The position numbers were made by a program, and so were the translations under genes. DNA of 64,000 bases from Owenia fusiformis (Eukaryota; Annelida; Polychaeta; Sabellida; Oweniidae): assembly GCA_903813345.2 (NCBI GenBank), contig CAIIXF020000003.1, positions 27,667,248-27,731,247 on the forward strand, read 5' to 3'. Position 1 is the first letter of the stretch. Each line of letters begins with the position of its first letter. A model generated the notes under the pieces. That model was given only the letters and a program-made list of their open reading frames with translations, was not told where the DNA came from and searched no databases. This document shows positions 26,391 to 32,105 of this stretch, piece after piece.

Positions 26391-26393
26391 ATA

Positions 26394-27006
26394 CAGGGTG
26401 TCAAATAAGTTCCGTCCCCCCCTGCTACAGCTAAAACCTTAACAGACGGTACCTAGTGTGATATACCATTGGAAAGATCATCCAAAGTTATGTTAACTCA
26501 CCAACTCTCAAGTATTTTGGATGAAATTTACCTATATTTTTATGATGTCTTTTGTAGTTAGCGTGCCCTCATTTAAGTAGCTTTTTTGCGTCAAAATGAC
26601 CAGGAAATGATCTCAGAAATACATCAAAAAGTCAATCTTTTTCGCATTCCACTTGTTACAAAAAGGTTTTCACCACTTTCCTTGCACCTCTATTTTCTAC
26701 ACATCTAACCCTATCCAGAAATTGGTTAAATTCATCGCCATATACATATTTAGTCATCTTTTGGTCCATTGACCTTTCTTATACCCGATTCTTAAAATCC
26801 TGCCAAATACACCAAATTGCCATGTTTCTAGGCATATGGTCACCTCAATTGATCCAATGTAAAAATTTGTGAGATTGATTGACATGTGTCAGATATATGC
26901 CAATCAACGTAACTTTGGAAGACCTTTCCAGTGATATATCACACTTGGTACCAAATATCTTTGTTTTGGCTGCAGAGGGGGGGGACGAGACTTATTTGAC
27001 ACCCTG
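26394..27006. mobile_element. 613-bp TA-flanked inverted-repeat element
   Basis: The left end is CAGGGTGTCAAATAAGT followed by a C-run; the right end is ACTTATTTGACACCCTG preceded by a G-run. TA is present immediately outside both ends. Inner arms remain similar (GGTACC.AGTGTGATATA against its complement). A TA duplication with short CAGGG termini fits a Tc1/mariner-type non-autonomous element. No transposase frame is present. Confidence 0.85.
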
Positions 27007-27306
27007 TATATGAGAGTATTAAAAGCCATTTACACTTTCTTAATTATTTTACTTGATAATCTGATGGAGAATATTTGAACCACACCATTCACTAAAAACT
27101 TCCACTTTTGGGTGATAGGTTTAATGTGTTACTCTCTCCATTGAACCATGGGACATAACCTCCCTTGGGAGTTGGGACCTTATGACACCTCTCCCATAAG
27201 GCCCATAACATTGAATATGTTACTTCACAAAACACTTCATTTCCATAAATATATGGTAGAGTCTTTTTTATATTTTTTTCACATTATTGATACAGTAAAA
27301 CCAGAG

Positions 27307-27312
27307 TTTATT
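27307..27312 (-). terminator. RPL14 poly(A) signal overlapping the stop codon
   Basis: On the minus strand AATAAA contains the TAA stop of RPL14. If used, the 3' UTR would be only about 20 bases. No closer alternative signal is obvious downstream. Confidence 0.5.
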
Positions 27313-30300
27313 TCTTGCTTGGCTTCTTGTTAACCCTTGGTTTCTTTGGGTCTTTCTTGGCCTTAGCTCGGAGTTTTCCAAACTCAATGTTCACCAAACG
27401 GTTGCGCTGAAAATAAATGAAAACTTTCATTAATATATAACTTAAATGGCAGATCTCAACAAAAAAGAGTTCAACATCATCTTCCACAGATAACAGTGAT
27501 AAGACCAACTGATTTTTTTTCAAATTTTGACCTCGTCTATAAATACAGAAAACATCAGATAATTTTATCTGTTAAACAAAATGTGAAATATGCAAATATG
27601 AAATGGAGCCACATCTCAGAAAGAAGGATATCATCCATGATATTCAGCCGGCAATTCCTATCAAGAATATTGGTTCATCATAAATGTGAGCTCTTCTAAA
27701 TCAATATTAAATTGTGATGAAAAGATCAAAACAACTTGATTCTAAAATCTTCACGAACTTAAAGATAGGTGTTTCAGAGATGGAGACAGGTTTTCTCTGA
27801 AACATCTCTAGTTGGTGAATTTTTTATAATTTATTTTGCAATAGAAAGATGATTAGATGATATTAGTACTTACAGTTTGTTTGGCCTTCATCAGTTTGAA
27901 TCTGTCGAAGTCAGTCATAGCGGCTCGCTTAAAAAATTAGATCGATATTATTAGCATTGTTGCCAGTTTTAGGATTATTCAAAGCAAGGAGAAGTTCCTT
28001 AGTTCACATTCTATAATGGGACAAGGCATTAACATCCAAAATGTCAACTGTCATTTGTTACACTCGATGAGCGCCATCCACAAAAAAAGTTGGAAACTAA
28101 CAATATGACATTTCTGATGGTGAGGTAACGTAAAAAAAATTAATGTCAAATCTCTGAAAAGAAGGATATCAATGAATTTCAATATTGATCTTTCAGCCAT
28201 AAATACAGAAAACATCAGAGAATTTTATAACCAAAATGTGAGAAATACATGTACAAAATACAAAATGGAGCCACATCTCAGAAAGAAAGATATCATCCAT
28301 GATATTCAGCCGGCAATTCCTATCAAGAATGTTGGTTCATCATAAATGTGACAATTAACTTCTGTACAACAAATATTTGTGCTGCAGATTTAGATGTCCT
28401 ATCAATGGGTGTTCACACTGGATTATATGCATTAAAAAGGTATTGAAAACCTACCTTTTCTCTGTTGGCAATCTTTTTAGCCCAAGTGGATTCTTCCCAC
28501 TTCTTTGTGATCTCAGCCTTGTTCCAGGCCTTGGTGACTGTACCAACACGTGCGCCATAACTGATATCTGAAACATAATATTCAGTTATAAAACAAGGCA
28601 TTATATTACAAAACGATACTGTACTGTAGCAGTTACAAAAGTGACTATTTAATGGTATCTATTATCGATGAAGAAGATACCAAACACAAGTCACAAAACT
28701 GCTGGGTGCTTCCATTAGTTCACCATATGATCTAAACATTCTACATTCTAAATGGTATTGGCAGGTCAATCAAACATATCTGGTTGATTTGACAGGGTTT
28801 CCCCTTCAGGTAAGTGTTTGTTGTATTGATTTTCAAAATCCTATTTTATAGGTATGACTGACCTACAATAGTGGCATTTTCTCTATAAAGTAAAGTTGAA
28901 ATTCTACTTCATTTGCTTGTTTTGAACTTTTAGCGACTACTTAATTTGGCGGAAATTATATTCTATAAGTCTAAAATGTTGAATTCATTGCAAAATAGAG
29001 TTATTGTAATGTTGCTCAGTGTAAGGTAACAGTTGTGAAATCATAGAACTCATAAGGTGTCCTAATAGTTTTGTCATCATTGCAACATACACAAAGTCTT
29101 GAATTTGAATACTCTCCTGACAAGGTAAGTTTTAAGATAGATGAGTGACATGCGTTATCCTTCTTACCTATTTTCAATTTGGTGAGGTGGAGCATCTTAA
29201 AGTTCATCTGTTTTCTGCCTACTCCACTGCATGGGCCATCTACAAGTGCCTACAAGTACAGAATAAAGGCTATCAATATTGAGTATTGTATATAGTAAAA
29301 CCTGTTTTAGTGAACACGTCATTCTATACAGTGTCTGGTTGCTATCTAATAACAATGAGGGGCCCTGTTGTGAATATAGATGTCCATGAGTTTTTATTTG
29401 CACACTTTACACCGATATCTGTTTATTTTACTTGGTTGGATTTCTTTTAGTATTAGAAGTGCTTGGATTATGTAAAGTCCATTTCAATCAGTTTGTGTGG
29501 CAATAAAACCTACAAATAAGCAATTATAAGACCCCAATGCAGTATCATATGGAAAAATACATACATGTACATATTTTAGTATATACAAAATGTTAGTTTA
29601 GATCTCTTAGTTTATCATGCAATACACCTGTTGCCTATTTTAATTTAGCGGTGTTAGTGTTTTGAAAAATTAAGTAATGACAAGTAAGGATGCAAGTTGA
29701 TACTGTACTACATGTTTGCAGTTGAAATTCATTATCAATTCTATGCAAGGAATCTCATAGTTCAACAAGTTAAACCCAATACCACGGCTTTCATTTATTA
29801 ATCTGAATGTTATTGTTGCCGTGATTGGGTTTAACTTCCGTGCTATGCTTTCATTTGTTGCAAATTCTCACTATCACTTATTAATTAAACGCGCCTGAAA
29901 TTCTATGCCATCGCATAGACCACCATAAATGTTTTTGCATTAAGGGCTGGATAGGCGCAGAGGTTTAACCTAGGGCGGGCCACAAGATATGTCAGATAAG
30001 AAAGAAGGCCCAGACTAGGTTTAACCTGTTGAACTAGGAATCTCAGTGGCAGTTGACATACTGTACTCCCGATTTACCTTCTTCTAAGGCCACTGTATGG
30101 TGGCCTTCCTCCAAAGATAAATTCCTGCATGAACAACTGGTCATGTCGTAATCATAAAATTTGAAATCATATGTCCGCCATTTTTCCACATCACAATTTG
30201 AATTGCGAGTTTTGGTCTTATTACCTCACCAAAAATTCCAAAACACACACAAAGTGATCAGTACTGTAATAGTTCACATCTTCTGGATCGCTAACTTAGA

Positions 30301-32105
30301 ATTTAAAGCCAGTTACTAATGTCAGACGTTAACGACATTTTTCAGTACCCTGCGTGCAGAGTCTAGTTAAACTACACTCTGCCTAGTAGAGACCACATTA
30401 CAGTTTAGGAGCCCCGCCTCCACGACAGGTACCGGTGACAGTTTGGGTAATAAATCACTTTTGACCTACGCGCTGACCTTTCTTCCACCAATCAGCGAGC
30501 TTGAAGAAACATACGCCAAATGCGTTCTAATTAAATATGCGCATGTCATTGGTCAATTCCGGGCTCAACGATGACGTCTGAAGGAATGACCATATATAGA
30601 ACGTCGGTCAAATTTGGCCGACGAACACTGATTGGCGCGGTGAGTTCACAGATTTATTTTAGTTTGAAAGAGTGAAGACGAAGCTCTCTTTTAAGAAGTG
30701 AAGTCAAACGAATGCAAAGGGTATTTTTTCAGTGGTTTACTTTTCAAAATTGCAAATAAATTAACATGCACCCTGGGCCCTGGACTTAGTCTAGTTTAGT
30801 CATATAAATCCGACCATCGTATGCTTTATTTGTCATTATTTTTTGATAATTTGGATATTAATTTTTTGTTATTTTCTTGCATACTAGGGTCGTACACACT
30901 TCCCGGTTGTAAATTGAGGGAAATGCTTTCCTGGCCTGTTTAGGCAACCAAAATCACACAAATTATGTATTAGAATATGCTCTTCATCGATAATGTATTT
31001 AATCCTACCTTACACACGTCAAACGCTTGATAATTGAAGAAGTATAAGAATTTTTCTGGAAACAATTTTTTTCCCCATGTGTAGATGCATTATGGGTAAT
31101 GATTGTGTAAAAGTAAAACTCTAGGTGAAGCGAAAAACGAAATAACAATAAATAACAGCAGCCATATTGAGATCGAGATTTCACCTCGAAAGTTTATCAT
31201 CGTCTTATGACAATTGAATCGCCTTCTCAGACACCAAGGAGGGTGAAGAAACCGAAAACAGATATGTTGGTAATAAATAATTACGATTTCGTTTTGGTTG
31301 CATGGTTTCACATTTAGACTGTATTCAGTGACCTTGAGTGACCTTGAGAACCATATTGGAAATTGGTTCAAACATATACGAAAATGATTACATTTCTTCA
31401 ATTATCAAGTATTTCCTGTGTTTAAGGTAAGAGTTAATACATTCTAGTTGAAGCATTGGATCCATTATCTTATCTGTGTAACTTTTGTTGAGCATAGAGG
31501 GCAGAAAAGCATTTACCGCAATATACTGGCCTTAATATCCTCGATGCAAATGTTGAAAACAAAAATAAAAAACAAATATTCAAATCGTCAAAAAGAAACG
31601 TGAAACAACAACATTAAGTCGAGTTCACTTGACTAAGTCTAGTTCAGAACCAATTATACATACCCTATTTTGGTCGATGACATCTACAATAGCCACAAGT
31701 TTGCCTTTGTCGGGGCCGTATGCAATGTAGGCAACACGCCCAATCTCAACATAGCGGCTGAAACCCTAGGAAGGAAAAAATAATATTATCATGAATGACT
31801 AGATTAATTAAAAATTTTCAACATAAGTGATATTTGGACTTCTCCTGTACAGCGGTGAATAAAATCCATACACGTTACTTAGTTGAAAGAACTTCCGAGG
31901 TTGAGATGAAATTTTGAGAGAAAAAAATGACCTATTTTTCGAATAATATTTCATAAAACTGGATATACCTGACCACCAAATGACAGTGATAATTGAAAAA
32001 TAGGGGCGGTAGACCGTGTATAATGTCAGGATTGCTTATATAGGTGTTTATATACGTTCGAACTTAACAAAATAAGGAAATATTTAAAATCTAACCACTC
32101 ACCAT
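27308..32105 (-). CDS. RPL14: 60S ribosomal protein L14 (eL14), 6 coding exons
   Basis: Structural protein of the large cytosolic ribosomal subunit. Exons: 32105-32103 (only the ATG), 31765-31664, 29249-29168, 28567-28455, 27927-27874, 27406-27308. Total 150 residues. Family landmarks in order: [39 protein letters not shown], a [20 protein letters not shown] block, and [20 protein letters not shown] short Lys/Arg tail ends PSKK, without the long Ala/Lys extension of vertebrate eL14. The splice directly after the ATG is unusual in appearance but frame-consistent. Introns 3, 4 and 5 each hold a box C/D snoRNA candidate. The gene is head-to-head with LDHD. Confidence 0.96.
27610..27688 (-). ncRNA. 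Box C/D snoRNA candidate, copy A (RPL14 intron 5)
   Basis: Read on the minus strand: terminal stem CACAT; box C ATGATGA (27681-27675); box D' CTGA (27647-27644); box C' GGATGAT (27636-27630); box D CTGA (27619-27616); closing stem ATGTG (27614-27610). Length is 79 bases. Guide-position sequence upstream of D' is TTGATAGGAATTGCCGG and upstream of D is ATATCCTTCTTT. It differs from copy B at two positions only. Intronic location on the host strand in a ribosomal-protein gene is classical for snoRNAs. I could not name the rRNA target. Confidence 0.85.
27768..27813. repeat. Hairpin in RPL14 intron 5
   Basis: AGGTGTTTCAGAG and CTCTGAAACATCT pair over 12-13 bases around a loop of about 15 bases. 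It lies between the intron donor and snoRNA copy A. Function unknown. Confidence 0.5.
28272..28350 (-). ncRNA. Box C/D snoRNA candidate, copy B (RPL14 intron 4)
   Basis: Same architecture as copy A: stem CACAT/ATGTG; box C ATGATGA (28343-28337); D' CTGA (28309-28306); C' GGATGAT (28298-28292); D CTGA (28281-28278); 79 bases. The D' guide stretch is identical to copy A. One of the two differences lies in the D-guide region (ATATC-TTTCTTT versus ATATC-CTTCTTT) and the other between box C and the D' guide. Flanking similarity (ATACAGAAAACATCAGA upstream in forward orientation) shows that a segment of about 150 bases was duplicated between introns 4 and 5. Confidence 0.85.
29019..29088 (-). ncRNA. 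Box C/D snoRNA candidate, different family (RPL14 intron 3)
   Basis: Minus strand: 5' stem ATGTTGC, box C ATGATGA (29080-29074), box D CTGA (29029-29026), 3' stem GCAACAT. The seven stem bases pair perfectly and lie directly beside the boxes. Length is 70 bases. Sequence ahead of box D is AACTGTTACCTTACA. Internal D'/C' boxes are weak (ATGAG and CTATGAT). It is unrelated in sequence to copies A and B. Target not identified. Confidence 0.72.
29749..30045. mobile_element. 279-bp non-autonomous element with 9-bp target duplication
   Basis: The element at 29758-30036 begins TAGTTCAACAAGTTAAACC and ends GGTTTAACCTGTTGAACTA, 19-bp inverted termini with one mismatch. It is flanked on both sides by GGAATCTCA (29749-29757 and 30037-30045), a perfect 9-bp duplication. 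A subterminal hairpin (GTTAAACCCAAT / ATTGGGTTTAAC with an inner GCCGTG pair) lies near the left end. A 9-bp duplication is typical of Mutator-like elements. It sits in RPL14 intron 2. Confidence 0.9.
30455..30660. promoter_or_regulatory. Promoter-like motif cluster inside RPL14 intron 2
   Basis: A short interval holds CCAATCAGCG, ATTGGTCAA, TGACGTC (CRE), CATATATAG, an imperfect palindrome GTCGGTCAAATTTGGCCGAC and TGATTGGCGCGG. It is CG-richer than its surroundings. No exon downstream on either strand could be identified, so this is a suggestion of an internal promoter or enhancer only. Confidence 0.3.

Follow-up and report, generated by a model that had tools for sequence, protein, structure and literature searches.

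Two 79-nt box C/D snoRNAs lie in adjacent introns of RPL14 in Owenia fusiformis, within a stretch of 64,000 nucleotides analysed here as a whole (the window), and differ by a base just upstream of box D. The locus raises the question of what these RNAs guide, and whether that base gives them different targets. An earlier note on this DNA had described the pair as a duplicated snoRNA with a change in one guide and had suggested that the RNA may be an orphan. The analysis presented here points to a conserved multi-copy snoRNA of the box C/D class, with U49 as its most likely functional counterpart. Neither the duplication nor the base change is out of the ordinary, and the notable part is the hybrid guide upstream of box D'.

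The earlier description of the pair itself stands. Both copies are on the minus strand, as is RPL14, and occupy neighbouring introns of that gene (Table 1); boxes C, D', C' and D and the CACAT/ATGTG stem are the same in the two. Each has a box C (RUGAUGA) and a box D (CUGA) adjoining the terminal stem, the defining features of box C/D RNAs, together with internal C' and D' boxes. RNAs of this class are stable and are bound by fibrillarin and other C/D core proteins, and they recognise rRNA or snRNA through about 10 nt or more of guide sequence upstream of box D or D', with the target base lying opposite position 5 of the guide. The copies differ at exactly two positions. One, 27626 (G/A), lies in the spacer that separates boxes C' and D, referred to as the D spacer; the other, 27669 (A/G), falls in the interval from box C to the D' guide. 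The homology of the two copies begins where the snoRNA does, at its 5' edge, and extends into the downstream intron for about 90 nt, with 77 of 79 positions identical in the RNA and 77 of 101 alignment columns (15 of which are gap columns) in the downstream flank; this difference in identity, together with four further copies in the genome, places the likeness of the two RNAs beyond chance.

The identity of the host gene follows from its spliced peptide, which matches Pfam Ribosomal_L14e (E 2.6e-31), the starts of exons 3 and 4 having been set by the reading frame. RpL14 is also named as a snoRNA host gene in Drosophila (PMC13228274).

Table 1. Features of the RPL14 locus, in window coordinates.
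Feature	Position	Strand	Details
RPL14 host gene	27308-32105	-	Pfam PF01929, E 2.6e-31
RPL14 coding exons	32103-32105, 31664-31765, 29168-29249, 28455-28567, 27874-27927, 27308-27406	-	
RPL14 intron with copy A	27407-27873	-	donor GTAAGT, acceptor CAG
RPL14 intron with copy B	27928-28454	-	donor GTAGGT, acceptor AAG
snoRNA copy A	27610-27688	-	box C/D, 79 nt
Copy A box C	27675-27681	-	ATGATGA
Copy A D' guide	27648-27664	-	TTGATAGGAATTGCCGG, same in all six copies found
Copy A box D'	27644-27647	-	CTGA
Copy A box C'	27629-27635	-	GATGATA
Copy A D spacer	27620-27628	-	9 nt, variable stretch; mismatch with copy B at 27626
Copy A box D	27616-27619	-	CTGA
snoRNA copy B	28272-28350	-	box C/D, 79 nt
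Copy B box C	28337-28343	-	ATGATGA
Copy B D' guide	28310-28326	-	same as copy A D' guide
Copy B box D'	28306-28309	-	CTGA
Copy B box C'	28291-28297	-	GATGATA
Copy B D spacer	28282-28290	-	9 nt
Copy B box D	28278-28281	-	CTGA
A/B homology, copy A side	27518-27689	-	snoRNA and some 90 nt of the intron downstream; matching stretch in copy B 28177-28351; local alignment
Third box C/D snoRNA candidate, SNORD58-like	29011-29086	-	in the next RPL14 intron, 28568-29167

The third snoRNA candidate of RPL14 scores 27.2 bits against a SNORD58 gathering score of 42 (E 2.8e-4 for 121 bases), has a terminal stem of 7 and has UUAGGACACCUU in common with the SNORD58 consensus; it is a neighbour of the pair and not a copy of the same family. 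Just downstream of RPL14, at 26391-27009, lie inverted repeats of 104 nt, 81% complementary and 411 nt apart, whose ends resemble CAGGGTGTCAAATAAGT, and the element that they bound is a probable short DNA transposon.

Copies of the RPL14 snoRNA occur elsewhere in the genome. A DNA search of the species' own genome returned six matches from six candidates: the window pair, a single copy on contig C9 and a group of three on contig C3 at about 14.47 Mb. The six intact copies are distributed over three host genes, RPL14 (two), RPS24 (one) and SF3B3 (three). The copy on C9 lies between two exons of RPS24 (Pfam Ribosomal_S24e, E 2.9e-34). Those on C3 share their strand with a gene identified as SF3B3 by a match of its N-terminal exon (best E 4.6e-39); its further exons were read by eye, two short exon pieces of this region giving no Pfam match. 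In fly, zebrafish, chicken and macaque, SF3B3 is described as hosting snoRNAs recurrently (PMC12309372). Read by eye, the SF3B3 region apparently carries one snoRNA per intron, and nine snR61-like snoRNAs, all above gathering score, are interspersed with the three family copies between 14462304 and about 14474860 of contig C3.

Two further searches bear on the extent of the family. The genome-wide pattern TGATGA-gap-TAGGAANNGCCG was found in six places, all belonging to the six-copy family, against one place for the backward control. A covariance model built from the six copies and run on the fetched loci, at E up to 10, gave ten matches, namely the six copies, one decayed copy and three weak matches (E 0.3, 2.6 and 5.2) that were set aside. 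The decayed copy (contig C9, L010:4766-4839, plus strand; 25.7 bits, E 0.0005) lies in an intron upstream of the intact RPS24 copy, and has ATGACGA as its C box, an altered guide and no CTGA after the guide.

Comparison of the six copies shows where the RNA is free to vary. In the 9-nt D spacer 6 of 9 columns are variable as against 2 of 70 elsewhere (Fisher p 8e-6, a guide only, because the copies are related by descent, perhaps recent), leaving 3 invariant columns inside the spacer and 68 outside it. The D' guide, described earlier as identical in copies A and B, shows no variation in all six copies and three host genes. The base difference just before box D is confirmed, but the proposal that it alters a guide, and so directs the two RPL14 copies to different targets, is very improbable and was rejected, as the change sits in the one clearly variable part of the RNA. 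The spacer probably carries no working guide, since it offers only 9 nt, of which two thirds vary. Moreover, the C of copy A and the U of copy B can both pair with G, and on 18S, the one rRNA compared, the best runs of the two spacers have 9 pairs with at least three G-U pairs, or 8 pairs with one or two. With a D spacer that guides nothing, copies A and B would be redundant.

Assignment to a known family was approached through Rfam, a check that the earlier note had proposed: at gathering score there was no match in the whole window, and at relaxed scores there were weak ones. Over 27590-28370 the lowest E-values belong to snoR77Y (33.1 and 31.6 bits; gathering score 52), followed by SNORD49 (RF00277; 22.1 and 21.7 bits; gathering score 37). 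Weak matches extend to several other C/D families, among them snoR38 with more bits than SNORD49, and the other families of the snoR77Y clan, CL00057, are hidden behind snoR77Y or gave no entry. Because copies A and B fall below the gathering scores of both SNORD49 and snoR77Y, the RNA is assigned to the box C/D class, with a probable mode of action like that of U49, and not to SNORD49 itself. A genome-wide search with RF00277 gave three weak matches, none of which is one of the six copies (60 of 85,632 candidates were scored), and since it also matched in 8 of 14 control genomes, it says nothing about absence. Between the core of the D' guide, AUAGGAAUUGCCG, and the Rfam consensus for SNORD49, AUAGGAAGUGCCG, there is a single difference in 13 positions.

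Alignment of the guides to rRNA, likewise proposed earlier, yielded for the D' guide 10 pairs with the species' own 18S and 14 of 16 with a published 28S, on which positions 6-7 are mismatched. The proposed 28S target, GUCGGCUCUUCCUAUCA, is a published sequence supported by mammalian and avian primers and not the species' own (PMC6822507, PMC10864109). On it, positions 1-5 and 8-16 of the D' guide pair and positions 6-7 do not, giving five and nine pairs separated by a two-base mismatch, with position 5 opposite the C of GUCGGCUCUUCC (also written as the C of GUCGGCUC). In this register at least 14 of 16 positions paired in 5 of 1,000,000 composition-shuffled guides. The 20-nt guide gives a duplex energy of -21.4 kcal/mol; the SNORD49 consensus guide, itself mismatched at positions 1, 6 and 15, gives -21.5. 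The 14-nt core alone, however, forms a weaker duplex than that of the consensus (-16.2 against -18.6). The mismatches at positions 6-7 adjoin the target base, and two adjacent mismatches in that place break the usual C/D pairing rule. Positions 17-20 pair with neither rRNA site, save for one or two chance pairs, yet are invariant, and part of the invariance of the guide may therefore reflect recent copying. The 28S C opposite position 5 is presumably Cm4426 in the older human numbering, going by the SNORD49 register. U49 is listed with Cm4426 in human and Cm2869 in Arabidopsis (PMC3511168), and silencing of a lncRNA containing SNORD49A/B is described as producing no change at C4426 (PMC9622897).

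At the SNORD65/snR77 site of 18S, CGCGGUAAUUCC, positions 2-11 of the D' guide all pair in one continuous run of 10, with a G-U pair at position 5 that involves the U of CGGUAAUUCC. The energy of this duplex is -16.6 kcal/mol (also -16.6 with the species' own 18S), between those of the snoR77Y (-18.9) and SNORD49 (-13.6) consensus guides, and the site is the best-scoring continuous run of the guide in the species' own 18S. In the fixed register, full pairing at positions 2-11 was reached by 78 of 1,000,000 shuffled guides, whereas such a run somewhere in 18S was reached by 549 of 2,000, which weakens the claim that the run is significant by itself. The guide forms slightly more stable duplexes with two other parts of 18S (-17.1 and -16.9). 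The U opposite position 5 we take to be human Um627, from the guide register. HBII-135, snR77 and snoR77Y are listed with Um627, Um578 and Um580 respectively (PMC3511168).

Searches for the rDNA of the species gave the following picture. A separate contig of only 54,981 bases carries the 18S, which for that reason may not belong to the host. On contig C501 (stretches L029, L030 and L031) the 18S core pattern occurs in four places, and the fetched stretches contain long N runs; the usual 18S 3'-end word was found in none of these three. Two rDNA stretches have one run of 5,000 Ns each, beginning in L030 about 260 bases beyond the 18S match and in L031 inside 18S. The 28S pattern was found at no place in the species' own genome, and eukaryotic rRNA patterns at none in the viral and genome contig collections. 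A shorter 18-base rRNA pattern was found in ten places of the genome contig collection, all in records with bacterial titles and in a number that is, by estimate, of the order expected by chance.

The fit to rRNA makes it improbable that the RNA is an orphan, or that its target lies outside rRNA. Such a reading agrees with the lack of a family at Rfam gathering score, and the rRNA scan covered the species' own 18S and the published 28S site. However, the D' guide is similar to the SNORD49 consensus and can pair at two known rRNA sites, that of U49 in 28S and that of SNORD65/snR77 in 18S, the former in the fixed register of a similar guide and far beyond what shuffled guides achieve. A family that now serves the 18S site only, having lost the 28S site, is equally improbable. 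By the canonical rules, ten continuous pairs with 18S beat a 28S duplex with two core mismatches, and the best Rfam score is that of snoR77Y, an 18S guide. Nevertheless, positions 12-16 form five Watson-Crick pairs with 28S and only two G-U pairs with 18S, and these positions are invariant in the six copies, a point weakened by the equal invariance of positions 17-20.

Less easily set aside, though still rather unlikely, is that one D' guide directs 2'-O-methylation at both the 28S U49 and the 18S SNORD65/snR77 sites, which have CGGNNNUUCC in common. The ideal target of the guide, CGG-CAA-UUCC, combines the C of 28S (CGG-CUC-UUCC) with the AA of 18S (CGG-UAA-UUCC), and the fixed-register pairing with 18S is complete at positions 2-11 and rarely matched by shuffled guides. 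When the SNORD49 14-nt core is altered at one position at a time (42 variants), the position-7 change present in the family gives the best 18S energy, but weakens the core 28S duplex from -18.6 to -15.4; among single-change neighbours of the present guide, 2 of 42 have a small advantage at whichever target is bound less strongly. The ease with which an equal run arises elsewhere in 18S, the two stretches of lower energy and the G-U pair at the very base to be methylated all argue against a double function. Patterns for a dedicated 18S guide (GGAAUUACCG-type) that demanded box CTGA and little or no deviation in the core found none in the species' own genome beyond the six known copies, returning either no places or three places devoid of C/D anatomy. 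This absence is weak evidence because of those very requirements, which a degenerate D' box would escape, and the three places are fewer than the seven of the backward control, so that pattern had little to find. In chicken, U49 and HBII-135 (SNORD65) are reported from one host transcript, both using the 5' guide (PMC2653536). A 28S of the species' own that reads CGGCAAUUCC, the sequence that would pair perfectly with the D' guide, would weaken the case for two targets. Among the open-access titles and abstract openings listed, none names a guide common to the SNORD49 and SNORD65 sites, although one may still be in print.

The reading somewhat favoured here is that of a multi-copy intronic box C/D snoRNA whose D' guide would direct methylation of 28S at the U49 site, the identity of the site being taken from the pairing register. 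The anatomy, the six copies, their host genes and the near-invariance of all but the D spacer are observed; the steps that follow are inferred. The RNA would be released from the spliced RPL14 intron and bound by the C/D proteins, after which the D' guide would pair with 28S rRNA at GUCGGCUCUUCCUAUCA and fibrillarin would add a 2'-O-methyl group to the C of CGGC, which faces position 5 of the guide. An ordinary intronic guide of this kind, with mismatches beside its target base, bears on how strictly fibrillarin guides must pair with their targets. Were both subunits served, the RNA would provide a natural case of a single guide element acting on each of them, and would point to a way in which two guides as alike as those of SNORD49 and SNORD65 could have arisen from, or merged into, one RNA; it would be a generalist doing the work of two guide families that are separate RNAs in one chicken host transcript.

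Among the known systems close to the family is SNORD49/U49 (Rfam RF00277, plant RF00337, clan CL00062), with which it has 12 of 13 consensus positions of the D' guide core and the C/D architecture in common, and guide position 5 would fall on the same C of the published 28S. The two differ in their 28S mismatches (positions 6 and 7 in the family; 1, 6 and also 15 in the SNORD49 consensus) and in their hosts, which are RPL14, RPS24 and SF3B3 here, whereas a figure legend places human SNORD49A/B with SNHG29 and shows SNORD65 together with them (PMC9622897). In plant and human alike, U49 has a second LSU site listed (PMC3511168), in contrast to the short, unconstrained D spacer of the family. The snR61/Z1/Z11 RNAs (RF00476; the SNORD38 counterpart), present in nine copies among the three family copies of the SF3B3 region, have a different guide and target and are neighbours, not relatives. 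With SNORD65/HBII-135 (RF00571), yeast snR77 (RF01181) and plant snoR77Y (RF01178), of clan CL00057, the family has in common the guide GGAAUU-CCG adjoining box D' and 10 continuous pairs at the same 18S site, and snoR77Y provides its best Rfam score, at 33.1 bits against a gathering score of 52. In contrast to these RNAs, however, the family has G and not A opposite the target U, and its continuous pairing stops at position 11.
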